44,378 nt of DNA, from NCBI GenBank assembly GCA_947452315.1, contig CANGCX010000012.1, positions 1 to 44,378 of the forward strand. Direction: 5' to 3'. Made by a program: the position numbers and the translations under genes. This stretch comes from Opitutia bacterium. Its GTDB lineage: Bacteria; Verrucomicrobiota; Verrucomicrobiia; Opitutales; Opitutaceae. The notes below the pieces were generated by a model. It was not told the DNA's origin and ran no database searches. It was given only the letters and a program-made list of their open reading frames with translations. Below are positions 24,075 through 44,378 of this stretch, in pieces. Numbering within the stretch: the stretch's first letter is position 1; the number at the start of each line of letters is the position of its first letter.

Positions 24075-24101
24075 CTCACACAAGTGAGCCTATTTTAGGC
24101 T
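24075..24101. terminator. paired small hairpins behind tRNA-Cys
   Basis: CTCAC/GTGAG (24075-24079, 24084-24088) is followed by CCTATTTT, a weak terminator for tRNA-Cys. An overlapping AGCCTA/TAGGCT hairpin (24087-24092, 24096-24101) covers the stop codon of the convergent regulator gene. Both stems are short; the two folds are mutually exclusive. Confidence 0.4.
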
Positions 24102-25192
24102 AAATAGCGTTCCACAGAGCCCTCGGCTACATAGCGCGGGAAAATCAGATTAGGCTCTTTCTGCAAAAATCCTTTATTGGCCATCTGGAGCATTAATCGA
24201 GATAGGCGATGGGCGAAGGATTCTCCCTCGAAGCGGTAGTGTGAAATTACCTGTTCAAAATGCGGGTCGTAGTCACGGGCGATGAGTGAGATGCGACCTG
24301 GGGCCTTTATGCCGTGTCGCAGCAAATAACCCACGACAAAAAAAACGTGACGGGGCTTGGCGACGAGTAGGGCGGTGGGTGGATGGATTGAGGTAAATAA
24401 TGCATCGAGCTTAGCGGTGAGATTACTCGCCGTGCCACTGTGACGCACGATAATGCCCTCAGTCCGAGCGATGTCGCACACATGGCCCAACCCCTGCAAA
24501 AACCCTTCCTCGCTAACAAGATCGCCCGCCGCGCTTGATTGCGGCGTGAGAAATGCGATTCTGCGATGGCCTTTGGCGCGAAGGAGTCCAGCGGCGTGGC
24601 GACACACAGAGCGGTAATCGACATCGAGTGAGGGTAATTTGACGGCCGGGTGGCAGGAGCCGAGTACCAGTGCTGGTACGGAGCCGGCGGCGAACCATTC
24701 CTGAAGCTCTTTTCCAAGTGAAAGGAGCACGCAACAAAGCACCCGATTCTGGCGCAAAAACGTCTCCAACTTTCGGCGCTGGGCGGCGGCGCTACCGGAG
24801 GGGCACACAAAATTCTCGCTCGTGAAACCCTGCTCGGCCAAATGCGCGCGCATTTCGCTGATGCCCTGATAGGCGGTGAGCGCCATTTGCGAAATCGGTT
24901 GATGGGATATGAGCAGCACTAATCGAGTTTGCGCCTGTGTCACAGGCGGTGCGACGTGGAGCAATCGATTCCGCCTTCCGTGATGGATTTCAATGAGGCC
25001 CTCTTGCGCGAGCTGTTGCAACGCGGTGCGTATCGTCGGTCGGCTGACTTTGAACATCTCGCAAAGACGTCGTTCACTGGGTAGGTATTCCTGCCAGACG
25101 TTTTCCTGCACGGCCTTCTGGATCGCCGCGGCCGCCTGAGCTGAAAGCGAGAGCCGGCGCGGGATGGTAAAGACTCCAGATTGGGTGCTCAT
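24095..25192 (-). CDS. GntR-LacI hybrid transcriptional regulator (AraR-like architecture)
   Basis: 365-residue regulator. The N-terminal winged helix is of GntR type (YLPSERRLCEMFKVSRPTIR, about 37-56; LAQEGLIEIHHGRRNRL). The rest is a LacI/periplasmic-binding-protein-like effector domain (about 90-365; LLISHQPIS, HRRIAFLTPQ, PTALLVAKPRHV). Such hybrids are sugar-responsive local repressors. It is divergent from the aldolase gene, 58 bases between starts, so it most likely controls that gene and possibly the whole downstream locus. The effector is unknown. Confidence 0.88.
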   Translation of the reverse strand: MSTQSGVFTIPRRLSLSAQAAAAIQKAVQENVWQEYLPSERRLCEMFKVSRPTIRTALQQLAQEGLIEIHHGRRNRLLHVAPPVTQAQTRLVLLISHQPISQMALTAYQGISEMRAHLAEQGFTSENFVCPSGSAAAQRRKLETFLRQNRVLCCVLLSLGKELQEWFAAGSVPALVLGSCHPAVKLPSLDVDYRSVCRHAAGLLRAKGHRRIAFLTPQSSAAGDLVSEEGFLQGLGHVCDIARTEGIIVRHSGTASNLTAKLDALFTSIHPPTALLVAKPRHVFFVVGYLLRHGIKAPGRISLIARDYDPHFEQVISHYRFEGESFAHRLSRLMLQMANKGFLQKEPNLIFPRYVAEGSVERYLA

Positions 25193-25250
25193 AAAAGTTT
25201 ACCAGTAGAACGTGGTGGTTTATCTGCGATAGTGAAATTTGTTTTTTTCT

Positions 25251-26153
25251 ATGCATAAACCAGCCGGAGTTCCTATTTGGTCAGCAGTGCCCACGCCTTT
25301 GCGGGCCGATCTCACGGTGGACGTGTTGTCGCTCGAGCGAATGATTGCGGCCTCGATCGCCGAGGGCGTGGAAGGCCTTTTTGTTGCGGGGACCTGCGGC
25401 GAGGGGCCTTGGCTGCCAGATCGGGAGCGTCGCGTTTTGATGACTGCGGCCGTCAAAGCATCCGCGGGGCGATTGAAAATTGCCGCGCAAGTCTCCGATA
25501 ATTCGGTCCCGCGCATCCTCGACAACGCGCAGATGGCGGCAGACTGCGGCGTGGATTTTGCGATCATCGCGCCTCCGGCTACGTTGTTGAACGCTACGCC
25601 CGAGCGGATCACGGCGCTGTTTGCCGAGGCGGCGCAGCGTTGTCCGTTGCCAGTGGGCATCTACGATCTGGGGAAACATCGCCCGATCATGATTCCCGAG
25701 GACCGGTTGAAAGAGCTGTATTTGTTGCCGCAAGTGAAGCTGGTGAAAGACAGCTCCGGGATGCCCGAGCGGCGGGCAATCGCGCTGGCGGCCCGTGTGG
25801 AAAAACCCTCGTTACGGCTATTTAACGGTGACGAATTTCGCTGCCTCGAGTACCTTCAGGCGGGCTATGATAGTATGTTGTTTGGCGGAGCCGTGGCGGT
25901 GGCTCCGCAACTAGGCCGCATCGGTGAACTTTTTCGTGCGGGTCGGTTGGAGGAGGCGCGGGCTCTCGAGGCCGTGATGAAGCGCACACTTTTTGACATC
26001 TACGGGGGTGAGAAAATCGCCTGCTGGCTGACAGGCTTGAAGCATTACATGGTGCGTCGAGGCTTATTCTCCACCTCCGCTAGTTTTCTCGGCTATCCGC
26101 TCACGGATGAATGCCGCGCCTCGATCGAGCGCATCGTCGCTACCTCGGCTTGA
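25251..26153 (+). CDS. dihydrodipicolinate synthase / N-acetylneuraminate lyase family aldolase
   Basis: 300-residue class I TIM-barrel aldolase/lyase acting on pyruvate-derived Schiff bases. The Schiff-base Lys is K166 (KLVKDSSG), the proton-relay Tyr is Y138 (GIYDLGKHRP), and the pyruvate-binding loop is AGTCGEG (47-52) in place of GTTGE or GSTGE. The YDLGKH segment lacks both the Arg typical of lysine-pathway DapA and the YNIP pattern of sialate lyases, so the substrate is likely another 2-keto-3-deoxy acid. The ATG at 25251 is chosen over a TTG at 25239. It is divergent from the regulator and followed by an SDR gene. Confidence 0.87.
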   Translation: MHKPAGVPIWSAVPTPLRADLTVDVLSLERMIAASIAEGVEGLFVAGTCGEGPWLPDRERRVLMTAAVKASAGRLKIAAQVSDNSVPRILDNAQMAADCGVDFAIIAPPATLLNATPERITALFAEAAQRCPLPVGIYDLGKHRPIMIPEDRLKELYLLPQVKLVKDSSGMPERRAIALAARVEKPSLRLFNGDEFRCLEYLQAGYDSMLFGGAVAVAPQLGRIGELFRAGRLEEARALEAVMKRTLFDIYGGEKIACWLTGLKHYMVRRGLFSTSASFLGYPLTDECRASIERIVATSA

Positions 26154-26200: not shown

Positions 26201-26974
26201 ATGTTGACCTCACCCCTCCAAGAATCTGCGAAACCGCTGCGGGCGATCGTCACCGGTGGCGCTGCCAACATCGGGCGGGCCATTACCGAGGCTTTTCTCG
26301 CGCGCGGTGGACGTGTGGCGATCGGGCAGCGTAATCTCGCGGCGGCGGCCGCACTGGTCGCGCGCTATGGTGATCGCGTGATTCCTTTTCGCGTGGATGT
26401 CAGCGATCCGGCACAGTGTCGGCATTTTATCGATGAAGCGGCGTCAGCGTTGGGCGGGCTCGACGTATTAGTGAATAATTCTGCGGTAACTGGGCCAGCG
26501 GCGATCGCACGCCTCGCGGACATCACGCCCGAGCATTTTGAAAATGTGGTACGCGTTAATCTTGGTGGTGTCTTGTTTTGTTCTCAAGCTGCAGTGCCGC
26601 ATTTAAAGGCCACGGGTGGCGGCGTCATTGTTCATATCTCTTCAATCAATGCTTTGCGGCCGCAAATGGGTGCAGTGGTGTATGCCGCTACCAAGGCAGG
26701 TCTAACCTCCTTGACGCAATCGATGGCCAAAGAACTTGCGAGTGATGGTATTCGCGTTGTCGCCATTGCTCCTGGTGATATTGCGCTCGATAACACGGCG
26801 GAAGTGGATGCGGCCATCGCGGCCAAGGGAGCGGGCAGTGACGTGGTTAACCAAACACCGCTTGGGCGGGGCCGAACCGCCGACATCGGCGAGACCGTGG
26901 CGTTTGTTTGTTCACCGGCGGCGCGATTTGTGACCGGCGTCACTTGGGTCGTAGACGGCGGCTTGCTCGCATGA
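26201..26974 (+). CDS. short-chain dehydrogenase/reductase
   Basis: 257-residue NAD(P)-dependent SDR. The cofactor motif TGGAANIG is at 18-25, the structural NNSAV at 91-95, the catalytic Ser in HISSINA (146/147), and Tyr160/Lys164 in YAATK. The C-terminal VTGVTWVVDGG is standard. It lies 47 bases after the aldolase in the same direction, so it may oxidise a sugar or sugar acid before retro-aldol cleavage. The substrate is not readable. Confidence 0.9.
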   Translation: MLTSPLQESAKPLRAIVTGGAANIGRAITEAFLARGGRVAIGQRNLAAAAALVARYGDRVIPFRVDVSDPAQCRHFIDEAASALGGLDVLVNNSAVTGPAAIARLADITPEHFENVVRVNLGGVLFCSQAAVPHLKATGGGVIVHISSINALRPQMGAVVYAATKAGLTSLTQSMAKELASDGIRVVAIAPGDIALDNTAEVDAAIAAKGAGSDVVNQTPLGRGRTADIGETVAFVCSPAARFVTGVTWVVDGGLLA

Positions 26975-26982: not shown

Positions 26983-27954
26983 TTAGATCGGAGCGAGCGT
27001 GCACAACGCGTCGCCCGCTCGGACCGAGCGCTGGATGCGCAACATTACAATTCGGCCTTTGCGTTCGGCCTGAATCGTGGCGCCGCCCAACTTGCCCAAA
27101 TAGTGTACAAGGCCGATCGTGGTGCCGCGCTGGACGTGATCGCCAACTTTTACGCTCGGTACAAAAAGCCCGTCGTGCGGCGAGGGATGGTGAATTTGCA
27201 GATGCGCCTCATCGGCATCTCGGGTCGTGCGGAGAATTTGGTGACGCAACTTAGCTTTGCGTTTGGAGGGTACGCACCCAATTGCTGCGAGCAGGTGGAG
27301 AAGTCCGCTTTCGAGCGCGCGCAGATCGCGGGAGTCGACATTGCCGGTGCCGCGACACTCCACATAGATCGCGGGAATATTGCGGTTAAAAGCCGCACTC
27401 AGTGTGCGGCCCGGCAGAAAGGGGCCCGCCCAGCACCAAAACGCATCGAAGCACGCGGCCATCGTGCGTTGCGTTCGGTTTATATTCCGCTGGTGGCTGA
27501 TGAATCCGGTCCAAGGCAGCAATTCATACGCGCGACCTGCGCTGTGCAAATCGACATAGTGGGTGGCTTGAGCGAGCACTTGGGTGTCGAAAAGATGCGC
27601 CAGACGCTGCGTGATACTTCCTCTAGCTTTTCCGGGAAACGCGCGGGCGAGATTCACTTCGTCTGCGGGCGCCGATCTGAGGCCGGCGTAATAAGCTGCT
27701 TCATTCAATACGGGGATCATGACCACCGAGCCGCAAAGCGATTGTGGGCGCCAGTGTTCGGCCCATTGGCGCAGAAGCGTGGGGCCTTCGTATTCGTCAC
27801 CGTGGGTGGCGCCATTGATCACCAGCACGGGTCCGTCTCCGCCGCGCCATATGAATAGATCGAAGCCGACGCCCCGCGCGGAAATTCTACGCTGGTGAAA
27901 GCCGGTAGACAGGCGCTTAAATTCAATGGAAAATTTGGACGAGGATAGACCCAT
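26983..27954 (-). CDS. M14 succinylglutamate desuccinylase/aspartoacylase family deacylase
   Basis: 323-residue zinc amidohydrolase. Zinc ligands are His51 and Glu54 in ATHGDEYEG and His137 in DLHSAG. The substrate/Arg segment is EVNLARAFPG and the catalytic Glu is E199 in YVECRGTG. A C-terminal beta-domain (VGDHVQRGTTIGLVHYLG) follows. The family removes acyl groups from N-acyl amino acids. The likely start is the ATG at 27954; it shares the CCATGG with the start of the opposite-strand gene. Read against its neighbours it may free an amino group on the imported compound. Confidence 0.84.
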   Translation of the reverse strand: MGLSSSKFSIEFKRLSTGFHQRRISARGVGFDLFIWRGGDGPVLVINGATHGDEYEGPTLLRQWAEHWRPQSLCGSVVMIPVLNEAAYYAGLRSAPADEVNLARAFPGKARGSITQRLAHLFDTQVLAQATHYVDLHSAGRAYELLPWTGFISHQRNINRTQRTMAACFDAFWCWAGPFLPGRTLSAAFNRNIPAIYVECRGTGNVDSRDLRALESGLLHLLAAIGCVPSKRKAKLRHQILRTTRDADEAHLQIHHPSPHDGLFVPSVKVGDHVQRGTTIGLVHYLGKLGGATIQAERKGRIVMLRIQRSVRAGDALCTLAPI

Positions 27955-29074
27955 GGAAAAAACAAAGACGACTAAGGACAAAAAACTACGAGCGAAGTCT
28001 ACTGTGGCGCAACCCCGCGTGACTGGCCAACGCAGAAAACCAGTTGTGCGCTGGATTACGGAAGGCACGCGTAAATTGCTCGTCTTAGAAAATTCGTTTT
28101 GTCGTATCTCCCTTTGGCCCGAGATGGGTGGCGCGATCGTAAGCTACGTCGATCTGGCTAGTGGCGTGGACATTATCTGGCGAAATTTTTACGGCCAACC
28201 GGCCCGGTTGAGTAGTCTCGATCAACCCATGCGTAATGGCAGTGATCTGTACGATGTTATGGATGGTAGTTGGTATGTCTCTTTGCCCAACGGTTTTTTT
28301 GCCGGCGATTATTTTGGTGCTCCTCTTGGTACTCATGGTGAATTGCGTAGTTTGCCCTGGGTGGTGACGGATATTGCCGCGACGCGCGAAGAGGTGCGTG
28401 TGACGATGCTCGGTCGTTCGGTTCGCACGCCGCTTGTTTACCACCGTGAACTCAAATTGCGCCGCGATAGCGCGCTCATGCACTGGCGGGAGACTTTGGA
28501 AAACCGTTGGGCCGAGTCCTTACCCGTCGCGTGGTTGCAACATCCGACTTGGGGTGGCCCGCTTTTGGACGGTGCGCAGCTAATTACGCCGGCGAGAAAA
28601 GTGAACGTCTTTAAGGCTGATGCGCCAGAAGGACTGCAATTGCGTTCAGGATATCGTGGTAAATGGCCATTTGTGCCAGAGCGGGTCGGAGGAAAATTGC
28701 GCGATTGCAGTATAGTGCCACCGGCGGGTAGCGGGCGCGATCATTCCGTGCAGTTGACCGATTTCGAAGCTGGGTGGGGTTGTGTCTGGAATCAGCGGCG
28801 TAAGCTCGGTTTTGCGCTCGAGTGGGACCTAAACACCTTTCCTTACGCGTGGTCGTGGAACTGCAGCGGTGGCGTGAAACAATATCCACTCTGGGGTGAA
28901 GGTCACATCATCACGCTGCAGCCTAGTACCTCACCAGTGGGACGATGGCCGGATTTATTGCGGGCTGGCGCGGTACTTACGGTGCCAGCGCGCGGCAAAG
29001 TTTCGACTACGATGACAACGGGCTTTGTCACTACGCCTCGTGGCTCTTGGTCTAAAGCGGAGGCTGCGTTATGA
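27953..29074 (+). CDS. aldose-1-epimerase-like / DUF4432 family protein
   Basis: 373-residue galactose-mutarotase-fold protein. FCRISLWPEMGGAIVSYVD opens the fold, and LVYHRELKLRRDSALMHWRE and VAWLQHPTWGGPLLDGA are typical of the aldose-epimerase-like carbohydrate-binding group. The start at 27953 has a GAGGA Shine-Dalgarno eight bases upstream; a second ATG at 27926 lacks one. The first 30 residues are highly basic (KTKTTKDKK and similar). Probable role: anomer interconversion or recognition of a sugar. It overlaps the next gene by ATGA. Confidence 0.78.
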   Translation: MEKTKTTKDKKLRAKSTVAQPRVTGQRRKPVVRWITEGTRKLLVLENSFCRISLWPEMGGAIVSYVDLASGVDIIWRNFYGQPARLSSLDQPMRNGSDLYDVMDGSWYVSLPNGFFAGDYFGAPLGTHGELRSLPWVVTDIAATREEVRVTMLGRSVRTPLVYHRELKLRRDSALMHWRETLENRWAESLPVAWLQHPTWGGPLLDGAQLITPARKVNVFKADAPEGLQLRSGYRGKWPFVPERVGGKLRDCSIVPPAGSGRDHSVQLTDFEAGWGCVWNQRRKLGFALEWDLNTFPYAWSWNCSGGVKQYPLWGEGHIITLQPSTSPVGRWPDLLRAGAVLTVPARGKVSTTMTTGFVTTPRGSWSKAEAAL

Positions 29075-30147
29075 ATCTCTGGAAACATGCCGCGAAGTGG
29101 GATGCGCCACCGAGCGAAGACGCGGTGACGCTAGGAGAAGGCGGGACTCCACTGGTACGTTCGCGTGTGATCGGACCGGCGCTCGGATTGAAAAATCTCT
29201 GGTTTAAAATTGAAGGATGTAATCCCACTGGCTCATACAAGGATCGTTTCGCAGCCTCAGCCGTGACCCATTTGAAGCGTGATGGTCGCGTCGCCTGTCT
29301 TGGAACTTCGAGCGGCAACACAGGCGCAGCCTTAGCGGCGTATTGTGCCCGCGCTGGGATTCGCTGTTTTCTCGCTATCGTGGAAGGCGCGCCCGAGGGG
29401 AAGCTACGGCAGATGCGCGCTTACGGTGCCCAGCTGATTCGCATTAAAAACTTCGGTTCATCACCGGCGGTCATTGATGAAGTGATGACAGGTCTGCGCG
29501 GTCTCGCGAGTGAACTGGGCGCCGGGTTTGAAGTGAGTGCATTTTGTTTTTCACCGCGAGGCATGGCTGGCGTAGAAACGATGGGATTGGAAGTCGCCGA
29601 GGCCATGGCCGGTGAACGCTTTAGCATTTTCAGTCCGGCTGGAGGCGGTGGACTTACGCTGGCAGTCGCACGTGGTGTTAAATCTTGGGGTGGAGCAGGG
29701 CGCGTGCATTGCGTGCAACCAGTAGGAAACGACACCATAGCTTCAAGGTTGCGCGCGGGGGAGAGTCGCGCCGTGGCCACGCCTTCGACTACAAGCATTA
29801 GCGGTTTACAGGTGGGGAGCGTATTGGATGGCGATGAAGTCATCGCGGCGTGTCGTGGCCTCGGCGGTACGGGTTATGTAGTGGCCGATGAAACCGTATG
29901 GTCCTGGCAAGCACGGCTTGCGCGTGAAGAGGGGATTTTTTCTGAGCCTGCAGGGGCGGTAGCGCTCGCAGGTCTCGAGCAAGCAGTGGCTCGAGGTGAG
30001 ATCGCACTCGACGAACATGCAGTTTGTCTCGTCACCGGTAGCGGGTTTAAGGATGAGCGCTCATTGTTGCGGATGACCGGTGAGACGCCGACTCCGCTGG
30101 TTGAGCGCTTTGCGGATTTTGCGCACGCGGTGCGGGCCGGGCTCTAG
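29071..30147 (+). CDS. threonine-synthase-like PLP-dependent enzyme
   Basis: 358-residue fold-type II PLP enzyme of the ThrC family. The Schiff-base Lys is K57 in NPTGSYKDRF; SSGNTGAALAAY binds the substrate carboxylate or phosphate, and GGGGLT binds the PLP phosphate. Genuine ThrC converts O-phosphohomoserine to threonine. Here the gene is embedded in a sugar-acid locus and coupled by ATGA to the epimerase-like gene, so a beta/gamma-elimination on another amino acid is possible. No homoserine-pathway gene is nearby. Confidence 0.85.
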   Translation: MNLWKHAAKWDAPPSEDAVTLGEGGTPLVRSRVIGPALGLKNLWFKIEGCNPTGSYKDRFAASAVTHLKRDGRVACLGTSSGNTGAALAAYCARAGIRCFLAIVEGAPEGKLRQMRAYGAQLIRIKNFGSSPAVIDEVMTGLRGLASELGAGFEVSAFCFSPRGMAGVETMGLEVAEAMAGERFSIFSPAGGGGLTLAVARGVKSWGGAGRVHCVQPVGNDTIASRLRAGESRAVATPSTTSISGLQVGSVLDGDEVIAACRGLGGTGYVVADETVWSWQARLAREEGIFSEPAGAVALAGLEQAVARGEIALDEHAVCLVTGSGFKDERSLLRMTGETPTPLVERFADFAHAVRAGL

Positions 30148-30149: not shown

Positions 30150-30923
30150 TTAAGCGAGGCTGTCGTTAAGCGTCTGGGCGAAGGCGGGCAGCATTTTCAT
30201 AACCGCACCGAAATCGCTGCCGTGGGCGATAAGTTGAGCCCCTTGATTTTTTAGCAAAGCGATGTCTTCGGCTGTGCCAGACGGGCGACCCCAAGCGATA
30301 CCGTGTTTGGCTGCGGCTGCGGCGACGGTGGCTTGGGCTGCGATCATTTTTGGATTTTTCCAATCAAGTGGGCAACCAAGGCGCAAGGAGAGGTCGCCTG
30401 GGCCGATGAACAGTCCGTCGATTCCGGGCGTGCCTGCGATGGCGTCGATATTGGCGAGGGCTTCTGGAGTTTCAATTTGGACGATGAGAAACGTATCGGA
30501 GTTGGCGGCGGCGGGGTAGGTGAGTGTACCTTCGAGGTAGAAATTATTGTCGAGACCGGCTCCATCGAGACCGCGTTGACCGAGCGGTGGGAATTTCACA
30601 GCTTGAGCGAGAAATTTAGCCTCGGCCGCTGTATTGACGAGTGGGATCATCAGGCCGGTGGCGCCGTCTTCGAGCAGATGGTAGAGATCGGTGGCGTTGC
30701 GGCTACCGGTGCGAACGATACAGTCAATGTTGGCTAGGTGGTGCATCGCGATCATGCGTTGCAGCTCGTGCCGTTCCCAGGTGCTGTGTTCGCTGTCGAG
30801 CCAAATGGCATCAAAGCCGGCCTTGGCGGCGTGCGCGGGCATCATTGTGGTGGGATAATACATGCACGCGATGCGAGCGGCTAGACCTTGACGAATACGG
30901 GAGCGAATGAGGGAAGGGCGCAT
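30150..30923 (-). CDS. HpcH/HpaI family class II aldolase (copy 1)
   Basis: 257-residue metal-dependent pyruvate aldolase. Conserved residues are the base His in WLDSEHSTW, Arg in LGQRGLDG, the metal ligands Glu in IVQIETPEA and Asp in FIGPGDLSLRLG. The family cleaves 2-keto-3-deoxy or 4-hydroxy-2-keto acids to pyruvate plus an aldehyde. It is convergent with the threonine-synthase-like gene with two bases between stop codons. The second copy (33427-34248) is divergent in sequence, suggesting different substrates. Confidence 0.9.
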   Translation of the reverse strand: MRPSLIRSRIRQGLAARIACMYYPTTMMPAHAAKAGFDAIWLDSEHSTWERHELQRMIAMHHLANIDCIVRTGSRNATDLYHLLEDGATGLMIPLVNTAAEAKFLAQAVKFPPLGQRGLDGAGLDNNFYLEGTLTYPAAANSDTFLIVQIETPEALANIDAIAGTPGIDGLFIGPGDLSLRLGCPLDWKNPKMIAAQATVAAAAAKHGIAWGRPSGTAEDIALLKNQGAQLIAHGSDFGAVMKMLPAFAQTLNDSLA

Positions 30924-31111
30924 GAAATTTGAGATTGTTGAATAGGTGAAGTGGGGCTCTAGGACAATCGGGGAATTTTTGGCATGTGATATGACCAGTT
31001 GAGGAGCGTTGCCCGATAAGAAGATGAGCGTGAAAAATTGGCCTCGCGAAACGATCTCGCCGTTAAAGTAAAAAATTGCAGACGTATATGTCGCCCCATC
31101 CCCCTTCGCCC

Positions 31112-36185: not shown

Positions 36186-37345
36186 AGCACTCTCTTCTGC
36201 TGTGGGCTTGGTCTCTGATGTTTATGAGTTGCTCTGCTTTGGGTGCGACTGCTTTTCCCGCAATTATCAACGCGCCCGTGGTCATGGAGTTGGCGCCCGG
36301 GCCGGGCAATCCTCGCAATAGTGAGGGCTCATTCATCGAGCTCAAAGACGGTAAAATTCTTTTTGTTTATAGCCGTTTCATCGGCGAGTCATTCTCCGAT
36401 GCCGCAAAGGCGCGACTAGCAGCGCGCACTTCGGCTGACGGTGGTGATACATGGTCGAGTGATACGTGGATCGTTACACCCGAGGAAAACGATGTGATGA
36501 ATGTCATGAGCGTCTCGCTCGTTCGATTGGGCAATGGCGATATCGGGCTGTTTTATCTACTGCGGCGGAGTTGGCACGACATGAGGATGTGGTGTCGGCG
36601 TTCGATGGATGAAGGGCTGACATGGAGTTCGCCCGTGAGATGCATGTCGGCGGAGGGATATTATGTGGTGAACAATGACCGCGTCGCTCGCCTCGCTTCG
36701 GGACGGCTGGTGATTCCGGCTGCCTTACATCGTAGTCTAGCGGATCGCAATGAATCCTCGGCCGTCGATTGGCGTGGCTTGGCGGAGTTTTTTCTTTCTG
36801 ACGACGACGGGCGCACGTGGCGTAAAGCCAAAGGTTATGGTTCACTGCCGGTCGCCCACACCCGAAGTGGATTGCAGGAGCCAGGGGTGATTGAATTACC
36901 CGGTGGGGTGCTTTGGGCTTGGGCGCGCACTGATCTCGGGCGGCAATATGAAATGTTTTCCCACGACGGCGGCGAGACATGGAGTGTTCCCGCTCCTTCT
37001 CGTTTCACATCACCTAATTCACCGCTCTCGATGAAACGTCTACCCGGCAGTGAACGTATATTAGCGCTGTGGAATCCAGGCCCGGCTTATGAGACCCGCG
37101 CACTCAAGCCGATCGGCGGTGACCGCACTCCCTTGGTATTCGCCCTCGGTACCACGCCCGTTGGGACGTGGTCCAAAGCGAGCCTCCTGGATGGGCTAGG
37201 GGACGTCGACGAGGGGTATTGTTACGCTGCGATCCATTTTACGAGTGATGCCGTACTTCTGGCTTATTGCGCCGGAGGTGAGCAGGATAAAAACCGTTTG
37301 GCTAAACTGCGCATGAGGAAGCTCCCACTGGCTTTGTTTCGCTAA
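36182..37345 (+). CDS. secreted BNR/sialidase-fold protein
   Basis: 387-residue six-bladed propeller of the sialidase superfamily. Asp-boxes are SADGGDTWSS, SMDEGLTWSS, SDDDGRTWRK and SHDGGETWSV. The N-terminal NPRNSEGSFIELKDGKILFVYSRF is typical of the large family of BNR exo-enzymes in this phylum. A signal peptide ends in MSC, a weak lipobox. It overlaps the BNR-SGNH gene by four bases, implying coupled expression. The true glycosidic specificity is unknown and may not be sialic acid. Confidence 0.85.
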   Translation: MKHSLLLWAWSLMFMSCSALGATAFPAIINAPVVMELAPGPGNPRNSEGSFIELKDGKILFVYSRFIGESFSDAAKARLAARTSADGGDTWSSDTWIVTPEENDVMNVMSVSLVRLGNGDIGLFYLLRRSWHDMRMWCRRSMDEGLTWSSPVRCMSAEGYYVVNNDRVARLASGRLVIPAALHRSLADRNESSAVDWRGLAEFFLSDDDGRTWRKAKGYGSLPVAHTRSGLQEPGVIELPGGVLWAWARTDLGRQYEMFSHDGGETWSVPAPSRFTSPNSPLSMKRLPGSERILALWNPGPAYETRALKPIGGDRTPLVFALGTTPVGTWSKASLLDGLGDVDEGYCYAAIHFTSDAVLLAYCAGGEQDKNRLAKLRMRKLPLALFR

Positions 37346-37490
37346 TGTAACGCAGGGATAAGCGCCCTGTGGTAAGGAGGTATTACCTGTCTAATCGACT
37401 CGGATGCCGTGTCACCTAGGGATGTATTTTCGGGGTCCAAAACACTCCGCCGCGAGGCGGTCTTTTTCTGATCCTTCTTATCCTTGTTTT
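37346..37490 (+). promoter_or_regulatory. structured leader of the TonB receptor gene
   Basis: 145 bases between a BNR gene stop and the receptor ATG hold several hairpins in a row: CAGGG/CCCTG (37353-37357, 37365-37369), then GGTAA/TTACC (37371-37375, 37383-37387) whose loop is GGAGGTA, a Shine-Dalgarno-like string, then the terminator described separately. No known riboswitch family is recognised. A short leader peptide is possible (in-frame GTG at 37409 to TGA at 37468) but unproven. Confidence 0.45.
37447..37467 (+). terminator. intrinsic terminator 23 bases before the TonB receptor start
   Basis: CCGCC (37447-37451) and GGCGG (37456-37460) enclose GCGA, a stable tetraloop, and are followed by TCTTTTT. 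Its position so close to the receptor ATG means it cannot simply sit between two separate promoters; it fits read-through attenuation or a partial stop inside the operon. Confidence 0.75.
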
Positions 37491-40400
37491 ATGAAAATTA
37501 TCTCTGCTGGTCTTCTTTTCCGTGTGTTGGTTTCGCGTTCATGTTTTAGTGGGATGCGTGCGTTTGTGTTGGTCTCGCTCTTGGCTTTTATCTCGGTTCA
37601 AGCCCAATCCTCTGCCGGTATCATTGAGGGTACCGTGCTCGGCGTGAGTAATGGCGCCTATCTCAACAACGCCCGTGTCACCGTCGATGGCTCGCGATTG
37701 GAGACGTTCACGGATGCCAACGGCACCTTTCGACTCGCCAACGTCCCGGCGGGTGCTGCCTTGGTTCGCGTCAGTTATACCGGCTTAGAGACTCAGACGG
37801 CCAAGGTCACCGTCGCACCTGCGGCCACGGCTCGCCAAGATTTCGAATTGAGCCTTCCGCTTAATCAGACGACCCAAGATAACAAGAGCGTCGTAAAACT
37901 TGAAAATTTCGTTGTCGAAACTACTGCGCTGACGGCCGCGGCTGCCGCGATCAACGAGCAAAAGTTCTCCCCTAATATCAAAAACATCGTCGTGCTCGAA
38001 GAAATCGGCGACCTCGGCGACGGCAACGTTGGTGAGTATCTCAAATACACTCCTGGTGTTTCCATCGTCTCAGGCCCTCAGACGGCCGCGAGCATGTCTA
38101 TCCGGGGCCTTCCCTCAAGTGGTGTGGTGTTCATGGTCGATGGCGCAGAAGTTTCTTCGCCATCGGCGGATCGTTCGTTCGATCTTGCAGCTAGTTCCTC
38201 GGGTAGCGTTGACCGCGTGGAAATCACCAAGGTCCCTACGCCTGATCGCCCGGCCAACGCCGTCGGCGGTACAGTGAATATCATTGGCAAAAGCGGATTC
38301 AGCAGCCCACGGCGCAGCCTCAAGATCAACACCTACGGCGCCTATAATTCCAACAACCGTCTTAGCCCTCCCGGCCTGAGCGACAAGGTAGGCAGCGACA
38401 GCCACTCTAATGCACGCTCCATCCAGCCCGGCATCGACATCAGTTACGCTCAACCCGTTAACAAGTCCTTCGCATTCACGCTTAATCTTAGCGAGCTCAC
38501 GCGCGTCTACGACATGGATTACGATTCGCCCACTTGGGATATGATTAAGGGTATCCAGACGACCAATCTCGAGCAAAACGTTCTCCAGACTACTGAGCGT
38601 CAACTCGCCGCCGCCTCCATCGATTGGAAGCTCAACCGCGAAAACTCTTTCCGCCTCAACGTCGAACACGTCCAGATTAACACACCTACTCGTCAAAATG
38701 TTTTCACAACGGTGTGGGGTGCCGGAGCCACTGGTAACGCCGACTACACGCAAGGTGCTTCTGCGGGTAACGACATTATTCGACAGACTATGACCTATGG
38801 AGATCGCACGCGCGGCACATCTTCCGCTGTTTTGCACTACGTCCACGACGGCAAACTCTACAAGATAGACGCCAATGCCAATTTCTCCCGTAGTTGGGAT
38901 AAGCGCGACGACATTAACCACGGCTTCTTTCGTACGATTGGTAATTTCCAAGTCGGTTCGCTCATCGTGCGTGCCGACGGTCTCAGTGGCATCTACGACC
39001 GACGCGCTCCTAAGCTAACCGCTACCACGCGCACCGGTGCCGCCTTCGATCCGTATGATAATGCGCAGCTTGCACCGCTTAATCCGACGAGCCAGCCCAA
39101 CGAAATCACCTCCGACATGAAGAGCGCAGCGGCCAACATCTCTCGCGAACTTAACCTAGTTGTTCCAATGACTCTTAAGGTCGGCTTCTCCGTTAACAAG
39201 CAGCGCAAAGACAATACCTCCGCGCTCACCACCTGGACATTTGCCCCGCCTGCGACAGCCAGCCGTCTCGTCAAAGACTACGACCTCACGAACGACTCCC
39301 TGTCTGCACAGTCATTCTTCAACGACACGCTCAAGGTCAAGTGGGTCAGCCCCTCTAAGTATTTTAATCTCTTCAAAGCTCATCCCGACTGGTTCACGAC
39401 CAGCGAGACCGCCACCTATCAATCTGGTGTGACTAATTCCAAGTACTTTGAGGAAACCATCTCCGCCGCCTACATCCGCGACGACATCAAGCTGCTCGAC
39501 AACAAGCTCTGGCTCGTGGGCGGTGTACGCTTCGAGCGCACCGACGACTTCGGCCAAGGCCCGCTCGACGACTTGCGCGCCACGTTCAAACAAGACGCAT
39601 CAGGTAATCTTCTTAAAGATGCTGCCGGCAAAAATATTCCGGTCACTACCGATGCGCTCGCCACCGCCAAGCTCCGTTACACCGAGCGGGGCGCCGAGGC
39701 CAAGCGTAACTACTCTGGCTACTATCCTAGCGTAAATGCCACTTACTATTTCAACGAGTCCCTGGTCGCTCGTGCTGCGTTCGCACAGACGATCGGACGG
39801 CCTAATCTCACTTCGATTATTCCTGGCATTTCCGTGACGGATCCTGCCGTCGCTAATCCGACCGCAACCATCGTTAATAGCGGCCTGAAACCTTGGACCG
39901 CTGATAATTATGATCTCTCTGTGGAGACCTACAGTCTTAAAGGCGCGACAGTAGCGCTTAGTCTGTTCCGCAAAGACATCTCGGGCTTCTTCTCCTCGAC
40001 CCAAATTCCTGCCACCTCCGCATTGTTGCAGAGCTACGGTCTCGGCGATGAATATCTAAACTACACGATCATCACGCAGGCCAATGGCGGTGATGCTTCT
40101 ATTGAGGGCTACGAAGCTAGCTGGCGTCAGTCGCTTTACTTCCTGCCCTCCTGGGCCAAGGGGTTTTCCACCTATGTCAATGCCACTATCGCTCATGTGA
40201 GCGGCAACGATGCCGCAGCCTTCACGCCTTTCGCACATAAGAATATAAACTGGGGTGCCAGCTATGCTCGCCGTGGTTTTACCTTCCGTTGGAACGTCGC
40301 CTATGCTTACAAAGTCACCGGTGCGTTGGTTGCCGCCAGCGCTACGATTCCTGCTGGCACTGCCTCTTACGTTGCGCCGCAGATCACGCAGGATTGGTCC

Positions 40401-40571
40401 TTCCAATATAAATTTTCCAAGCGCTTCTCCTTTTATGGTAGTGCGCGTAACTGGAACGGAGCCAACAAACGCACCGAACGCGCCGGCCCCGGCACACCCG
40501 CTTGGACGCGTCCGCAATCCTATCAAAATTTCGGCACGCTCGTGACCCTCGGTGTGCGCACTGAGTTCTGA
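37491..40571 (+). CDS. TonB-dependent receptor with carboxypeptidase-regulatory-like N-terminal domain
   Basis: 1026-residue outer-membrane receptor for active glycan or oligosaccharide uptake. A signal region (to about residue 40, AFISVQAQS) is followed by a beta-sandwich CarboxypepD_reg-like domain (GIIEGTVLGVSNGAYLNNAR to LANVPAGAALVRVSYTG). The plug domain includes SMSIRGLPSSGVVFMVDGAE, and a long barrel ends in the aromatic TLGVRTEF. The ATG at 37491 is preferred; 37554 is a possible shorter start. There is no SusD partner, as expected outside Bacteroidota. It lies in one direction with the BNR genes and probably imports their products. Confidence 0.93.
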   Translation: MKIISAGLLFRVLVSRSCFSGMRAFVLVSLLAFISVQAQSSAGIIEGTVLGVSNGAYLNNARVTVDGSRLETFTDANGTFRLANVPAGAALVRVSYTGLETQTAKVTVAPAATARQDFELSLPLNQTTQDNKSVVKLENFVVETTALTAAAAAINEQKFSPNIKNIVVLEEIGDLGDGNVGEYLKYTPGVSIVSGPQTAASMSIRGLPSSGVVFMVDGAEVSSPSADRSFDLAASSSGSVDRVEITKVPTPDRPANAVGGTVNIIGKSGFSSPRRSLKINTYGAYNSNNRLSPPGLSDKVGSDSHSNARSIQPGIDISYAQPVNKSFAFTLNLSELTRVYDMDYDSPTWDMIKGIQTTNLEQNVLQTTERQLAAASIDWKLNRENSFRLNVEHVQINTPTRQNVFTTVWGAGATGNADYTQGASAGNDIIRQTMTYGDRTRGTSSAVLHYVHDGKLYKIDANANFSRSWDKRDDINHGFFRTIGNFQVGSLIVRADGLSGIYDRRAPKLTATTRTGAAFDPYDNAQLAPLNPTSQPNEITSDMKSAAANISRELNLVVPMTLKVGFSVNKQRKDNTSALTTWTFAPPATASRLVKDYDLTNDSLSAQSFFNDTLKVKWVSPSKYFNLFKAHPDWFTTSETATYQSGVTNSKYFEETISAAYIRDDIKLLDNKLWLVGGVRFERTDDFGQGPLDDLRATFKQDASGNLLKDAAGKNIPVTTDALATAKLRYTERGAEAKRNYSGYYPSVNATYYFNESLVARAAFAQTIGRPNLTSIIPGISVTDPAVANPTATIVNSGLKPWTADNYDLSVETYSLKGATVALSLFRKDISGFFSSTQIPATSALLQSYGLGDEYLNYTIITQANGGDASIEGYEASWRQSLYFLPSWAKGFSTYVNATIAHVSGNDAAAFTPFAHKNINWGASYARRGFTFRWNVAYAYKVTGALVAASATIPAGTASYVAPQITQDWSFQYKFSKRFSFYGSARNWNGANKRTERAGPGTPAWTRPQSYQNFGTLVTLGVRTEF

Positions 40572-40616
40572 TTGCCCGTGGGCGCCCGGCGGCTTCTGTA
40601 ATCGTTGGTAAATCCC

Positions 40617-42284
40617 GTGCGCCCTTTCATCGTTTTATTTTTTACCACCGCCTTGGGCTTGAGTGCTCCGGCAGTGGCGCCTGCAGGCTCTGCAACGCGA
40701 CAGGTAAGCGAGATCCTTGCGCCGGTGATCCTCCGTGAGGCTCTCACCAACGAGTCCTGCTTGGTCGCCCGTGCTGATGGTACGTTGGAAAACTACGCCA
40801 TCACCAAGCCCGCCAGCGATACCGTCTCCGTGCTGCGCTCGACGGATGGTGGCCTCACTTGGTCCGAGCCGGTGATCGCGTTTCCTTTGCCCGGCCGCGC
40901 CTATTACGCGCTGCAAGTCTTGCTCGCGGCCGATGGCACGCTCCACGCCGTCGTTCATATCGCGGGCGAGGGTGTCGGCGGTTATCGCGGGCGGCTTTAT
41001 GAGGTCTATCATTTTTCGCGGCGCGCGGGCGCGGCGACGTGGTCCGAAGGTCGTAAGGTTGTGCCGGGTTATGTCGGGTCCATCCGTGGCTTTATCCAAA
41101 TCCAGCGCAGCGGTCGTTTACTCCTCGCCGTTGGCCGCGCTCATCCCACTCGGGCTACACCGCCTCAATCCGGCCCCGACTTCGGCTGGAACGATACCCA
41201 TGTCTATTTTTCCGATGATCAGGGCGCGATGTGGCAAGCCTCACCCGATGTGCTTTCGTTCGAGTTGAAAGTACGCAACACTACGCGCTACGGCGCGATT
41301 GAGCCGGTCTTATTGGAGCTGCGCGACGGTCGCGTATGGATGCTAGTGCGGGATCGCCAAGGGCATTTGCTCCAGTCTTTTTCCGCCGATGGCGCGCGTT
41401 GGTCGCCGTTGAGCGCGACGGATTTTATCTCGTCCGATTCGCCCGCCGCCTTGTTGCGGCTACGCGATGGTCGCATCGTGATTGGGTTCAACTCCTGCCA
41501 AAACGGTACCGATCCGCGCAGCTACGCGATGGGTGGACGCGAGGTCTTGCACGCGGCTATCAGTGCCGACGATGGCCAGACGTGGCGCGGCTTCCGCGAA
41601 GTCTTCCGCGAGGCACCCGGACCCCTGCGGGGTGATCGCGGCACCGCCTATGCGTCGCTCGTCGAAAACTCCGCGGGTAAAATCATCGTCGTGAGTGGGC
41701 AAGGGGAGGGACGTCGCTCACTCTTCGCCATGGATCCGCGTTGGCTCGAAGCCACGTCGGCCCGCGATGAACTCAGTGCCAGTCCCTTGGCTTGGACGAA
41801 TTACGGTGGCTCGGGCCTGCACGTGATCACGCATGATGATGGCACCCTTGCCTTGGCCTTACCTTTTAATAAGACTGCGCCTCAGGGTGCGCTCTGGAAT
41901 TTCCCCATGACGGCGTCCGGAGAACTTCGGGTGCGTCTGCAAGTCCCCACGGCCGCTGCGGATCTACGTCTCAGTTTCACCGATCACTTCAACCGCATCG
42001 ACGACACGCAGGCGGCCACGCACGCGGTCTTCAGTCTCATGGCCTCAGCCATCGGGTTGCTCAACGATGATCGTCCGCATGACGTCGTGTTGCGTTGGTC
42101 CGAGGTTGGCAGGGCGGGCTTGCGGCACGGCGTGCTACACGTCGAGTGCGCGGGCCGCAGCTTCGGTCCGATTGCCGCGCAACGTCCCGCGCGCTTTGGG
42201 GTGAATTATTTTCGCGTGGAAATCAGCGGCGCCTCCGGTGACGGTCAGGTCTTGCTTTCTGAAACCTCCTTCCAAGCTCGTTGA
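40617..42284 (+). CDS. secreted BNR/sialidase-fold protein with extra C-terminal domain
   Basis: 555 residues with a signal peptide (RPFIVLFFTTALGLSAPAVA). The BNR propeller covers about 30-390: STDGGLTWSEP, SDDQGAMWQAS, SADGARWSPL and SADDGQTWRGF. About 160 residues follow with a lectin-like beta-rich look (LRVRLQVPTAAADLRLSFTD). There is no ATG near the start; GTG 40617 and TTG 40605 are both possible and I take the GTG because it gives the cleaner signal peptide. It lies 45 bases after the receptor gene and three bases before the next, so all are probably one operon. Confidence 0.82.
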   Translation: MRPFIVLFFTTALGLSAPAVAPAGSATRQVSEILAPVILREALTNESCLVARADGTLENYAITKPASDTVSVLRSTDGGLTWSEPVIAFPLPGRAYYALQVLLAADGTLHAVVHIAGEGVGGYRGRLYEVYHFSRRAGAATWSEGRKVVPGYVGSIRGFIQIQRSGRLLLAVGRAHPTRATPPQSGPDFGWNDTHVYFSDDQGAMWQASPDVLSFELKVRNTTRYGAIEPVLLELRDGRVWMLVRDRQGHLLQSFSADGARWSPLSATDFISSDSPAALLRLRDGRIVIGFNSCQNGTDPRSYAMGGREVLHAAISADDGQTWRGFREVFREAPGPLRGDRGTAYASLVENSAGKIIVVSGQGEGRRSLFAMDPRWLEATSARDELSASPLAWTNYGGSGLHVITHDDGTLALALPFNKTAPQGALWNFPMTASGELRVRLQVPTAAADLRLSFTDHFNRIDDTQAATHAVFSLMASAIGLLNDDRPHDVVLRWSEVGRAGLRHGVLHVECAGRSFGPIAAQRPARFGVNYFRVEISGASGDGQVLLSETSFQAR

Positions 42285-42287
42285 TAT

Positions 42288-43973
42288 ATGATCCGCGGTC
42301 TTTTTCTCTGGTTAGTTGCCCTCGCGGTTGTGACTGCGGCCCCGCGCGCGCGACCCGATTTCGGCCTGATCTTCAACGATGATGCCGATCTCGCCTTCGT
42401 GGTGCCCGATCGCGCCCGCTCCGAAGCCTTACTCCGCGCCAATCTCGCTGCGCTCGCCGATACGCCGGTCAAGACGCTCGTGTACTGCATCGGCATGGGC
42501 GGCGATGTACTCTACTACAACACGACCGTCGCCAGTCGCGTGGGTTGGCGCCATTCTGCCGATGAAAAGCCTGGTTCCTTAATGGCGAAACGAATGGAGA
42601 ACGCGCGTGTGTGTCTCTCCCAGGGCGCCGATGCCGTGCGCACCGCTGGAGAGGCGGCGCGGGTGTTAGGGCTTCGATTTATCCCAAGTCTGCGCATGAA
42701 CGACGCGCATTTCATGACGGATCCTGACGGTCACGCCATGACGAGTGAATTTTGGCTCAAACATCGCGCTAGGTACACGATCAAGGACTCTCCTTTGTCC
42801 TTCCAGCCCGCCTACGCCAATCTGCTCGATTACTCGCACGCCGCTGTGCGTCAGTTGCGGCTTGATACCGTTTTCGAGGTGCTCGCGCGCAACCACGACC
42901 TCGTCGATGGCTTCGAACTCGATTTCAACCGCTTTCAAGTTTTCTTCCCTAGAGGTCAGGCTGGTGCAGGTGCGCCTCTAATGACAGAACTTGTGCGTTG
43001 TGTGCGTGCGCGCCTCGATGAACTGGCCGCTGCCGAAAAACGACCGATGGCGCTTTTCGTTCGCATTCCGCCTTCATTGACAGATTGCACGACTGCGGGT
43101 CTTGAGGTTGAGCGTTGGATGCGTGAGGGCTTGGTGGATCTGGTTTCTCCGGCGCAGTTGATGAGCCTAGCCGGGGACATGCCGATCGCCAATCTCGTCG
43201 CGCTCGGTCATGACACAGGCGTGCGCGTCCAGCCTTCGCTCTATCCGCGCACTAGTACGCGTGTGCCGTTTCCTATTCCCGGCCCCACGCGCTACAGCGG
43301 TGCGGTAGTTGGCCGAGAGGCGACATTGCCCGAGATTCGCGGAGCGGCGGCGCAGTACCGTGCTCTGGGGGTCGATGGCTTTTACCTGTTCAACTTCTAC
43401 AACGCCTTTGGTTCTGCTCGGCCGCATGATGATCGTCTGTATCATGTTTTTCGTGACCTCGCTCGCCCGGAGAACCTACGTGGCCAATCCAGCATCTACG
43501 CCGCCTCCAAGAGTTATTATTTTGATGGCCCCGGCTCCTACGCCTACGCCAAAGCGCTCCCGGCCCAACTCCGCTCGGGCGTTCCGTCGCAGCTCGCGCT
43601 CCTCATCCCCGAGGATCCGGCGACCGTGGCTTTCTCGCTCCAAGCTACGGAAGCTCGTCTCGGCTTTCGCGGCGTACCGGAAACCACCGCTGTGGTCGTC
43701 CAACTCAACGGCCAAACGCTCTTCGATGGTCCGCTCGCCTCGGGGTCATTGGTCATCACGCGCTCACTCGTGAAAACCGCCCCGAAACCACTCGATCAAG
43801 CCGAGTCTTACCTGCATCTCCCGTTATCCGTCGCGACCGGTCTGCGTCGCGGGTCCAACAACTGGACGATTACCATCTCAGGTGCGCCCGCCGCCGCGCA
43901 GCTGACGGATCTCGAGGTGCGTTTCGATTACGCGTCTGAGCTCGAACCCATCTGGAACCGCACCGCACGTTAA
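42288..43973 (+). CDS. secreted TIM-barrel-like protein, glycosyl-hydrolase-like family 10 type
   Basis: 561-residue exported protein I cannot assign to a characterised enzyme. A signal peptide (MIRGLFLWLVALAVVTAA) is followed by a barrel-like region with strand motifs KTLVYCIGMGGDV, RFIPSLRMNDAHFM, VDGFELDFNRFQVF, MALFVRIPPS and GVDGFYLFNFYN. The NDAH and FELDF acidic residues resemble the active-site strands of GHL10-like hydrolases. A C-terminal beta-sandwich follows (about 430-561; VVVQLNGQTLFDGPL). It is three bases after a BNR gene and likely acts on the same glycan. Confidence 0.72.
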   Translation: MIRGLFLWLVALAVVTAAPRARPDFGLIFNDDADLAFVVPDRARSEALLRANLAALADTPVKTLVYCIGMGGDVLYYNTTVASRVGWRHSADEKPGSLMAKRMENARVCLSQGADAVRTAGEAARVLGLRFIPSLRMNDAHFMTDPDGHAMTSEFWLKHRARYTIKDSPLSFQPAYANLLDYSHAAVRQLRLDTVFEVLARNHDLVDGFELDFNRFQVFFPRGQAGAGAPLMTELVRCVRARLDELAAAEKRPMALFVRIPPSLTDCTTAGLEVERWMREGLVDLVSPAQLMSLAGDMPIANLVALGHDTGVRVQPSLYPRTSTRVPFPIPGPTRYSGAVVGREATLPEIRGAAAQYRALGVDGFYLFNFYNAFGSARPHDDRLYHVFRDLARPENLRGQSSIYAASKSYYFDGPGSYAYAKALPAQLRSGVPSQLALLIPEDPATVAFSLQATEARLGFRGVPETTAVVVQLNGQTLFDGPLASGSLVITRSLVKTAPKPLDQAESYLHLPLSVATGLRRGSNNWTITISGAPAAAQLTDLEVRFDYASELEPIWNRTAR

Positions 43974-43998
43974 TCGTCTGCTCATCCCTTTTCTCACT

Positions 43999-44378
43999 AT
44001 GCCCTACACCTTCGCTCAATCTCAGGCGCTCTTCACCCGCGCCCAACGCAGCATCGCCGCCGGCGTAAACAGCGGTATCCGCAAGATGGAAGCCCCCGTG
44101 CCGCTCTACTTCGCGCGCGGTAGCGGTCCTCACCTCTGGGACGTCGATGGCAATCACTACCTCGATTTCCAACTCGGCCAGGGCGCGTTGCTCTACGGTC
44201 ACGCCCCCGCAGGTATGGCCGAGGCCATCGGTGCCCAAGCGAAGTTGGGTACGCATTGGGCCGCGCAATGCGAACTCGAGATCGAGGTTGCCGAACGTAT
44301 CCAAAAGATGATCCCGTCCGCCGAGCTCGTGCGGTTCAACAACTCCGCCACCGAGGTCGTCCTCGCGGCTTTCCGTCT
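43999..44378 (+). CDS. class III aminotransferase, glutamate-1-semialdehyde-aminomutase-like (cut by window end)
   Basis: 126 N-terminal residues of a PLP-dependent class III aminotransferase. The pattern LFTRAQRSIAAGVNSGIRK, LWDVDGNHYLDFQLG, GHAPAGMAEAI and VRFNNSATEVVLAAFR matches the HemL-like group, but NNSATEV instead of the MVNSGTEA of HemL and the genomic setting point to a catabolic paralogue. The catalytic Lys lies beyond the window. It begins 25 bases after the TIM-barrel-like gene on the same strand and may remove or transfer the amino group of the sugar-derived product. Confidence 0.85.
   Translation, partial: MPYTFAQSQALFTRAQRSIAAGVNSGIRKMEAPVPLYFARGSGPHLWDVDGNHYLDFQLGQGALLYGHAPAGMAEAIGAQAKLGTHWAAQCELEIEVAERIQKMIPSAELVRFNNSATEVVLAAFR

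Follow-up and report, generated by a model that had tools for sequence, protein, structure and literature searches.

The stretch of DNA analysed here (the window; 44,378 nucleotides (nt), forward strand of contig CANGCX010000012.1, assembly GCA_947452315.1) comes from an Opitutia bacterium (Opitutales; Opitutaceae; genome G000, 84% complete) and makes up the entire contig (contig C12 of G000). It contains, at positions 24095–44378, a probable gene cluster for the use of sialic-acid-like sugars by an oxidative lower route. Gene content and predicted folds make it very probable that the locus serves the use of a nonulosonate (of sialate type); on balance, we lean towards a sialate-type locus whose lower pathway is oxidative and involves no phosphorylation. 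The evidence comes from predicted sialidases in the locus, the conservation of its genes in relatives and searches for the canonical sialate genes.

In the proposed pathway, the GH156 and BNR (GH33-like) proteins would release a terminal nonulosonate outside the cell or in the periplasm, and an SGNH domain would strip its ester groups. A TonB receptor would bring in sialosides, a kelch protein would interconvert the anomers, and a major facilitator superfamily (MFS) carrier would import the acid. The DapA-family protein, acting as a lyase, would split the nonulosonate into pyruvate and an N-acyl-hexosamine (N-acetylmannosamine, ManNAc, if the substrate is N-acetylneuraminate, Neu5Ac), which the DUF4432 protein would mutarotate and the short-chain dehydrogenase/reductase (SDR) would oxidise at C1 to the lactone/aldonate. 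The M14 protein is proposed to deacylate the SDR product because this would be an N-acyl alpha-amino acid, the substrate class of aspartoacylase-type enzymes. Deacylation would leave a beta-hydroxy-alpha-amino acid, from which the PALP enzyme would eliminate ammonia; the aldolase HpaI1 would then cleave the 2-keto-3-deoxyhexonate so formed to a second pyruvate and glyceraldehyde. Such a route would need no NanE, NanK, NagA or NagB. We infer the reactions and their order; the families, motifs, sialidase folds, linkage, and NanE and AGE negatives were obtained by comparison of sequences and predicted structures. That this succession (lyase, C1 oxidation, M14, PALP and second cleavage, yielding two pyruvates and a triose) is a new sialate route replacing NanE, NanK, NagA and NagB is a somewhat less than even prospect.

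All the gene families that an earlier note on this DNA had named within these 20 kb were found where it had put them. That note left out two genes, those coding for the DUF4432 protein (27926–29074) and the GH156 protein (42288–43973). The features of the locus are as follows (position, strand, description, basis):

23984–24058, +, tRNA-Cys, left edge of the locus
24095–25192, −, regulator with a GntR DNA-binding domain and a LacI-type (Peripla_BP_3) sensor domain (Pfam)
25239–26153, +, DHDPS/NanA-superfamily (DapA-family) protein, proposed nonulosonate lyase (Pfam/NCBIfam, motifs)
26201–26974, +, SDR dehydrogenase, proposed N-acyl-hexosamine 1-dehydrogenase (family, YxxxK)
26983–27954, −, M14 protein of succinylglutamate desuccinylase/aspartoacylase (AstE/AspA) type, DoeB-like, proposed N-acyl-aminohexonate deacylase (family models)
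27926–29074, +, DUF4432 protein, proposed cytoplasmic mutarotase (Pfam, 38.4 bits, cut-off 32.5)
29071–30147, +, threonine-synthase-like pyridoxal phosphate (PLP) enzyme (PALP), proposed 2-amino-2-deoxyhexonate ammonia-lyase (family models)
30150–30923, −, HpcH/HpaI class II aldolase 1 (HpaI1), proposed 2-keto-3-deoxyhexonate aldolase (family models, motifs)
31076–32173, +, NANM-family kelch protein, sialate mutarotase-like, probably exported (Pfam, 121.3 bits, cut-off 45)
32170–33405, +, MFS transporter, proposed inner-membrane importer (best NCBIfam model TIGR00893)
33427–34248, −, HpcH/HpaI aldolase 2 (HpaI2), GarL-like (family models)
34419–36185, +, fusion of a BNR propeller and an SGNH/GDSL esterase, probably exported (family models)
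36182–37345, +, BNR2, GH33-sialidase-fold protein (predicted fold, invariant residues)
37404–40571, +, TonB-dependent receptor with a CarboxypepD_reg domain (family models)
40605–42284, +, BNR3, BNR protein with a C-terminal extension (family models)
42288–43973, +, predicted GH156-family exo-sialidase, 561 residues (profile, fold, residues; no Pfam/NCBIfam match)
43999–44378, +, class III aminotransferase (glutamate-1-semialdehyde aminomutase-like), first 126 residues (cut by the contig end; full length in G037)

Predicted sialidases, capture and import

A profile of seven sequences matched EnvSia156 alone in the Protein Data Bank (PDB) at a threshold of E 0.001, with an E value of 3.8e-37. 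The predicted structure of the window's protein (mean predicted local distance difference test, pLDDT, 72.6) gave a Foldseek match to EnvSia156 with an E value of 6.4e-33, the next other protein standing at 2.4e-11; the two sequences share about 24% identity across the fold alignment. In EnvSia156, Asp14 is reported as the base, His134 as the acid, and Arg129, Arg202 and Asn346 as the triad that holds the carboxylate (PMC6811678). The residues aligned to Asp14, His134, Arg129, Arg202 and Asn346, namely D32, H141, R136, R215 and N369 (numbering counted from the profile alignment), were invariant in the seven sequences. By profile, fold and catalytic residues, the product of 42288–43973 is thus classed as a GH156-family exo-sialidase.

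BNR2 also has a predicted sialidase fold (mean pLDDT 78.2), and its top Foldseek matches were mostly sialidases. The best of these had an E value of 3.8e-15, a TM score of 0.66 (by query) and 18% identity; the second was an uncharacterised Dyadobacter protein. R45, D73, E233, R249, R315, Y346 and Y348 were invariant in the eight sequences aligned; of these candidate catalytic residues, a correspondence to known sialidases was seen for only the Glu and two of the Arg. BNR3 was not called a sialidase, since the first Arg of the triad typical of sialidases is not clear in its sequence.

The N-terminus of the kelch protein is hydrophobic by a crude test. The MFS transporter scored 120.9 bits with TIGR00893, below the cut-off of 395; this model presumably represents the ACS group of MFS proteins. 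With the model of sialate:H+ symporters, TIGR00891, it scored 33.2 bits (cut-off 552.9), and so does not reach the NanT type. With the GH156 protein, the GH33-fold BNR2 and the NANM-family kelch protein in one locus, the upper genes most likely serve to release a nonulosonate and capture it. These predicted sialidases also bear on the substrate, which the earlier note had taken to be a different nonulosonate or a sugar acid: the predicted GH156 exo-sialidase and the GH33-fold protein point towards sialate, or a close nonulosonate, rather than away from it.

Enzymes of the lower core

The motifs expected of the core enzymes are kept: in nine sequences compared for each protein, HGDE and DxH for M14, SxKD for PALP and YxxxK for SDR. 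For M14, the sole NCBIfam match was DoeB (124.5 bits, cut-off 402.7). PALP scored 82.0 and 70.4 bits with the EutB models (cut-offs about 413) and 124.2 bits with thrC (cut-off 167.1). We rejected a housekeeping threonine synthase role for PALP, as another gene, on contig C6 of G000, is a better candidate (257 bits). The DUF4432 protein, which we take to be aldose-1-epimerase-like, has homologues in five relatives (G031, G281, G037, G117 and G132).

HpaI1 fell below the NCBIfam equivalog cut-offs for HpaI and GarL. Its DxEH, R, QIE and GxGD motifs, kept in 9/9 sequences compared, presumably hold the catalytic His, the Arg, and the metal-binding Glu and Asp of HpaI class II aldolases. In genome G311, an HpaI1 ortholog (75% identity) adjoins both parts of a galactarate/altronate dehydratase, an SSF symporter and a weakly GH156-like gene (27%, E 4e-21). 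By analogy with this neighbourhood, HpaI1 plausibly cleaves 2-keto-3-deoxy sugar acids, with a plain dehydratase serving an amine-free sugar in G311. HpaI1 orthologs (75–76%) were seen by a weakly GH156-like gene in two loci (L126, 10079–14425; L127, 10338–12713), a possible Kdn-type (non-amino nonulosonate) route; these GH156-like genes, in G311 and G321, differ from the places listed in the GH156 survey described below. HpaI2 is kept in two genus-mates (G002 and G003) and missing from the unit of G037, where a further BNR gene occupies its place.

In the DapA-family protein, whose true start is likely the Met at 25251, the Lys of VKDSS and the Tyr of YD/YE, which we take to be the class I aldolase residues, are kept in 9/9 sequences. 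The protein scored 79.6 bits with the DapA model TIGR00674 (cut-off 206.15) and 44.6 bits with the NanA model TIGR00683 (cut-off 382). The motifs that had been read as those of a non-sialate aldolase thus indicate an unassigned subfamily and nothing further. An idea that two successive retro-aldol cleavages occur in every genome was weakened, as the DapA-family and HpaI1 genes are not always found together.

Over the 126 residues held by the window, the aminotransferase has homologues in G037 (93% identity), G032 (83%) and G117 (62%). Its conservation may be a sign that the nonulosonate carries two amino groups. The genes beside these loci (L115, 4028–5368; L124, 10960–12303; L020, 10840–12327) have no obvious step. 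Hexosamines are alpha-amino aldehydes, like the substrate of glutamate-1-semialdehyde aminomutase.

Conservation of the locus in relatives

Genome G037, from another genus of the same family and reported as 100% complete, holds the unit except for HpaI2 (locus L037) in the same order from the regulator to the aminotransferase, with 63–93% identity. Three further loci (L036, L038 and L039) cover the left part of the unit; in L039, PALP and HpaI1 are separated by two additional genes. The genus-mate G003 has the middle part. This gene-for-gene conservation in G037, and the partial conservation in genus-mates, indicate that the unit is more than a chance grouping. In the genus-mates G009 and G012, the tRNA-Cys and the BNR-SGNH gene lie less than 0.5 kb apart, and the catabolic module is absent at this site; the module therefore looks like a block that has been gained or lost beside the tRNA gene. 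A related-locus search with N-terminal patterns gave, among the matches listed (at least 594 stretches), nine loci, six of them of this unit. Three loci (L040–L042; 31–49% identity) were judged to be other family members and left out. Distant loci from another search that had a BNR or SGNH match alone (L024, L025, L027, L029–L031 and L033) were annotated and left out of the comparison. The six nearest named loci among the matches listed belong to metagenome-assembled genomes of Opitutae; that these are of freshwater origin is a guess from isolate names.

G031 and G281, genomes of another genus that each consist of a single contig, keep the regulator, DapA-family, SDR, M14, DUF4432, PALP and HpaI1 genes in the same arrangement with 55–72% identity. 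Their outer genes code for a TonB receptor, two related proteins without a Pfam match, a sulfatase and an SGNH enzyme. The core beside a sulfatase (L078, 8359–15512; L076, 8215–15375) suggests that this inner substrate also has another source, which is perhaps sulfated. A regulator ortholog (55–71% identity) adjoins the DapA-family gene in G037, L036, G031, G281 and G215. No convincing shared palindrome or repeated word was found when the intergenic regions of the locus were searched for an operator.

Co-occurrence was analysed in 273 genomes of the order with thresholds chosen by the analyst; PALP was found in 9 and HpaI1 in 16. Homologues of M14 and SDR lie within 10 kb of PALP in 9/9 PALP-bearing genomes, a linkage that spans four families of the order. 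An HpaI1 ortholog is present in 8/9 (expected 0.53; hypergeometric 1.6e-10, a value that overstates independence because the linked genomes are related), and on the PALP contig in 7/9, counting a contig-edge fragment in G132 that the HpaI1 survey had not listed. The profiles drew in part on the genomes surveyed, that of PALP on G000, G031, G037 and G281, so that those four were found by construction; in the five genomes outside the profile (G117, G132, G146, G161 and G165, of three further families), M14 and SDR accompany PALP in 5/5 and HpaI1 is present in 4/5. Across relatives, the lower core is retained more broadly than the upper genes. Since the genes travel together beyond this strain, gene for gene in G037 and as a core in further genomes of the order, an association peculiar to the strain no longer offers an objection to the common function that the earlier note proposed. 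Judged by these comparisons, the locus is a real, conserved utilisation unit, very probably of sialate type.

At the phylum level, PALP was found in 5 genomes of a draw of 354, and M14 (E 1e-40) in 5 of a draw of 367. Outside the order, G621 has PALP, HpaI-family and SDR genes together, with an M14 homologue (32–33%) on another contig. No PALP relative was found in a plasmid collection at E 1e-50.

The GH156 survey gave a match at E 1e-20 in 15/273 genomes of the order, of which the strong relatives in G037, G192 and G093 were used; G019 came in through another, earlier locus search. The DapA-family gene was found, with its own threshold, in 13/273, and lies near a BNR, GH156 or NanM gene in seven (G000, G037, G215, G112, G192, G093 and G161). 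The G161 stretch holds a DapA-family gene, a NanM-SSF fusion (L119, 10960–13458), an SMP-30/gluconolactonase, an M81 protein, an RraA-like aldolase and a PALP-SDR-M14 group; it would provide the lactonase that the window lacks, along with a second candidate for a pyruvate aldolase. M81 (MlrC-like) genes near PALP or the DapA-family gene were seen in G146, G161 and G032 (L116, 14514–16046; L119, 14285–15784; L124, 12334–13842) and perhaps code for an alternative deacylase.

Canonical sialate pathway genes

NanE was found in 0/11 genomes (G031, G281 and G161 lay outside this set), as the earlier note had claimed for the locus; the NanE control gave a signal in 8/14 known genomes, in six of them over the cut-off. 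The AGE epimerase was not found in G000, five genus-mates (G002, G003, G008, G009 and G012), G037 or G093, a negative weakened by its control, which gave a signal in 2/14 known genomes. With neither found, the known routes from ManNAc to GlcNAc(-6-P), N-acetylglucosamine (6-phosphate), are not seen in G000 or G037; for G000, this negative is limited by the 84% completeness of the genome. No kinase (NanK) occurs among the locus genes; no genome-wide search for NanK was made. The lower canonical pathway is thus not in the locus.

The absence of NagA and NagB, also claimed earlier, holds for the window and not clearly for the genome: a NagA-like and a NagB-like gene lie side by side on another contig (C15, 8000–9714), away from the locus. 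The NagA-like match scored 177.6 bits, below the cut-off of 225.65. More widely, NagB-family matches were obtained in 11/11 genomes, and NagA matches in 16/16, none (0/16) over the cut-off. NanA homologues have been reported in Verrucomicrobia (PMC2693436).

Alternative explanations

Several results weigh against a sialate-type locus with an oxidative lower pathway, besides the limits given above for the co-occurrence statistics and the AGE negative. For the sialidases and the lyase, the correspondence to Asp14 of EnvSia156 sits in an alignment stretch scoring −3.7 bits, BNR3 has no clear first Arg, and the score of the DapA-family protein falls well short of the NanA cut-off. No sialidase-type gene was seen near the DapA-family gene in six of its 13 genomes (G031, G281, G032, G060, G109 and G183), and the DapA-family gene occurs without the amino branch in seven (G215, G112, G192, G093, G032, G183 and G060). 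For the later steps, there is no lactonase within the window, SDR is a very common family, and the M14 and SDR of G146, G165 and G161 show 29–36% identity to those of the window, so that their orthology is doubtful. In G019 and G054, HpaI1, kelch and BNR genes are present, and M14, SDR and PALP are not in the stretch read; some genomes could thus use HpaI1 as their nonulosonate lyase. Finally, AGE is present in 6/14 relatives, among them the core-bearing G031 and G281.

A first alternative, which overlaps with the preferred reading and which we consider rather unlikely in its own right, keeps the same chemistry with another amino nonulosonate, e.g. legionaminate, pseudaminate or an N-acyl variant that bacterial glycans would supply, the C6 product being other than ManNAc. 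The aminotransferase, which has no role in the Neu5Ac version, would then handle the second amino group; its homologues lie by the loci in G037 and G117 and by the DapA-family gene in G032. Further, the contacts of EnvSia156 with the glycerol chain are reported as less conserved than its other contacts (PMC6811678), and an FMN (flavin mononucleotide)-dependent, L-lactate-dehydrogenase-like enzyme is encoded beside HpaI1 in G019, as a 6-deoxy product could need. However, GH156 activity is reported on Neu5Ac and Neu5Gc (N-glycolylneuraminate; PMC6254351), and a hexonate with an amino group at C4 would probably demand an extra step for the HpaI1 retro-aldol cleavage.

The locus might instead combine two modules, which seems to us improbable to a similar degree. 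M14, SDR, PALP and HpaI1 would degrade a free N-acyl amino sugar or amino-sugar acid, e.g. an N-acyl hexosaminuronate, and the DapA-family protein would be a second 2-keto-3-deoxyacid aldolase or dehydratase instead of a nonulosonate lyase. The core was indeed found without the DapA-family gene in the stretches read of G117, G132, G146 and G165, and beside a sulfatase, with no sialidase-type gene seen, in G031 and G281. G161 has the DapA-family gene and no HpaI1 at the threshold used, and the PDB and NCBIfam matches of HpaI1 include enzymes of sugar diacids (GarL, HpaI). A separation into modules is nevertheless at odds with the proximity of the DapA-family gene to BNR, NanM or GH156 genes in 7/13 genomes, and with the BNR gene that lies beside the core in G117 and G146.

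An ordinary sialate locus would process ManNAc through a missed epimerase/kinase and a distant NagA/NagB-like pair, with M14, PALP and SDR unrelated to it. The neighbouring NagA-like and NagB-like genes of G000 and the AGE genes of some relatives speak for this. The lack of NanE in the genomes searched, the AGE negatives (which include G037, reported as 100% complete) and the linkage of M14, SDR and PALP across four families make it quite improbable. A loose pile of carbohydrate genes with no common substrate, suggested by outer genes that differ among genomes, the missing HpaI2 of G037 and the two genes inserted in L039, is very improbable given the gene order kept in another genus and the blockwise absence of the module in G009 and G012.

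As to the sialate-type locus with an oxidative lower pathway, the earlier proposal that the amino group is removed before or after retro-aldol cleavage fits the conserved deacylase and PLP enzyme of the core, with removal placed after, not before, the first cleavage. Removal of the amine around the pyruvate-forming cleavage is probable on this evidence.

Comparison with known systems

The canonical nan system (NanA-NanK-NanE-NagA-NagB) and its Bacteroides variant without NanK share with this locus sialidases, a NanM-like mutarotase, an importer and a DapA/NanA-superfamily protein. Here, however, NanE and AGE were not found, oxidative and amine-removing enzymes and HpaI aldolases are present in the locus, and the DapA-family protein lies outside the NanA cut-off. 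EnvSia156 (PDB 6RZD/6S00; described in PMC6811678 and PMC6254351) shares with the GH156 protein its fold, the catalytic dyad, and the two Arg and Asn of the carboxylate triad. The protein of the window has about 24% identity to it over the fold alignment, and lies in a full utilisation locus.

Parallel chemistry is found in the Ong pathway for oxidative chitin use in Pseudoalteromonas, in which an N-acetyl-aminohexonate is deacetylated and then deaminated by a PLP enzyme to 2-keto-3-deoxyhexonate, as is proposed here; both steps to 2-keto-3-deoxygluconate are given as proven (PMC9537276, PMC12017989). The Ong product is described as phosphorylated by KdgK, while the present route would use M14, a threonine-synthase-like enzyme and a direct HpaI aldolase, its aldonate coming from the action of SDR on a sialate-derived sugar. 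The locus enzymes belong to families other than those of OngB and OngC; KdgK was not searched for genome-wide. The sulfo-Entner-Doudoroff pathway, as described in PMC12133307, would have in common an SDR 1-dehydrogenase, a lactone, a 2-keto-3-deoxy acid and a direct aldolase; its substrate is sulfoquinovose and it uses a dehydratase, where a deacylase and an ammonia-lyase are proposed here.

An M14 DoeB-type deacylase and a PALP enzyme are also common to this locus and to ectoine/hydroxyectoine utilisation (DoeB, EutB), which has a class III aminotransferase as well. In contrast to that system, the DoeB and EutB scores here are far below the cut-offs, and sialidases are present.

Searches of open-licence PMC papers gave no title or abstract opening that describes such a sialate pathway, and an oxidative, amine-eliminating sialate route is apparently undescribed. 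A survey of sialate use from 2023 took nanE or nanA-nanK-nanE clusters as its marker, and reports sialidase genes to be about 21 times more frequent than nanE in non-human environments (PMC10570557). If the proposed route is true, surveys based on nanE would miss real sialate users, and the route could help explain why sialidase genes far outnumber nanE in environmental metagenomes. It would also give M14 deacylases and threonine-synthase-like enzymes a role outside amino acid metabolism, and would provide a pathway context for the activity of N-acetyl-D-mannosamine dehydrogenase, which is named among the SDR sugar 1-dehydrogenases (PMC12133307).

Upstream of the locus, the product of window positions 8231–9904 has the look of a polygalacturonase-type beta-helix glycosidase, judged by eye from the sequence. 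A tRNA-Cys near ParA was seen at one edge in the window (23984–24058) and in two other loci (L018, 7334–7408; L019, 8026–8100).

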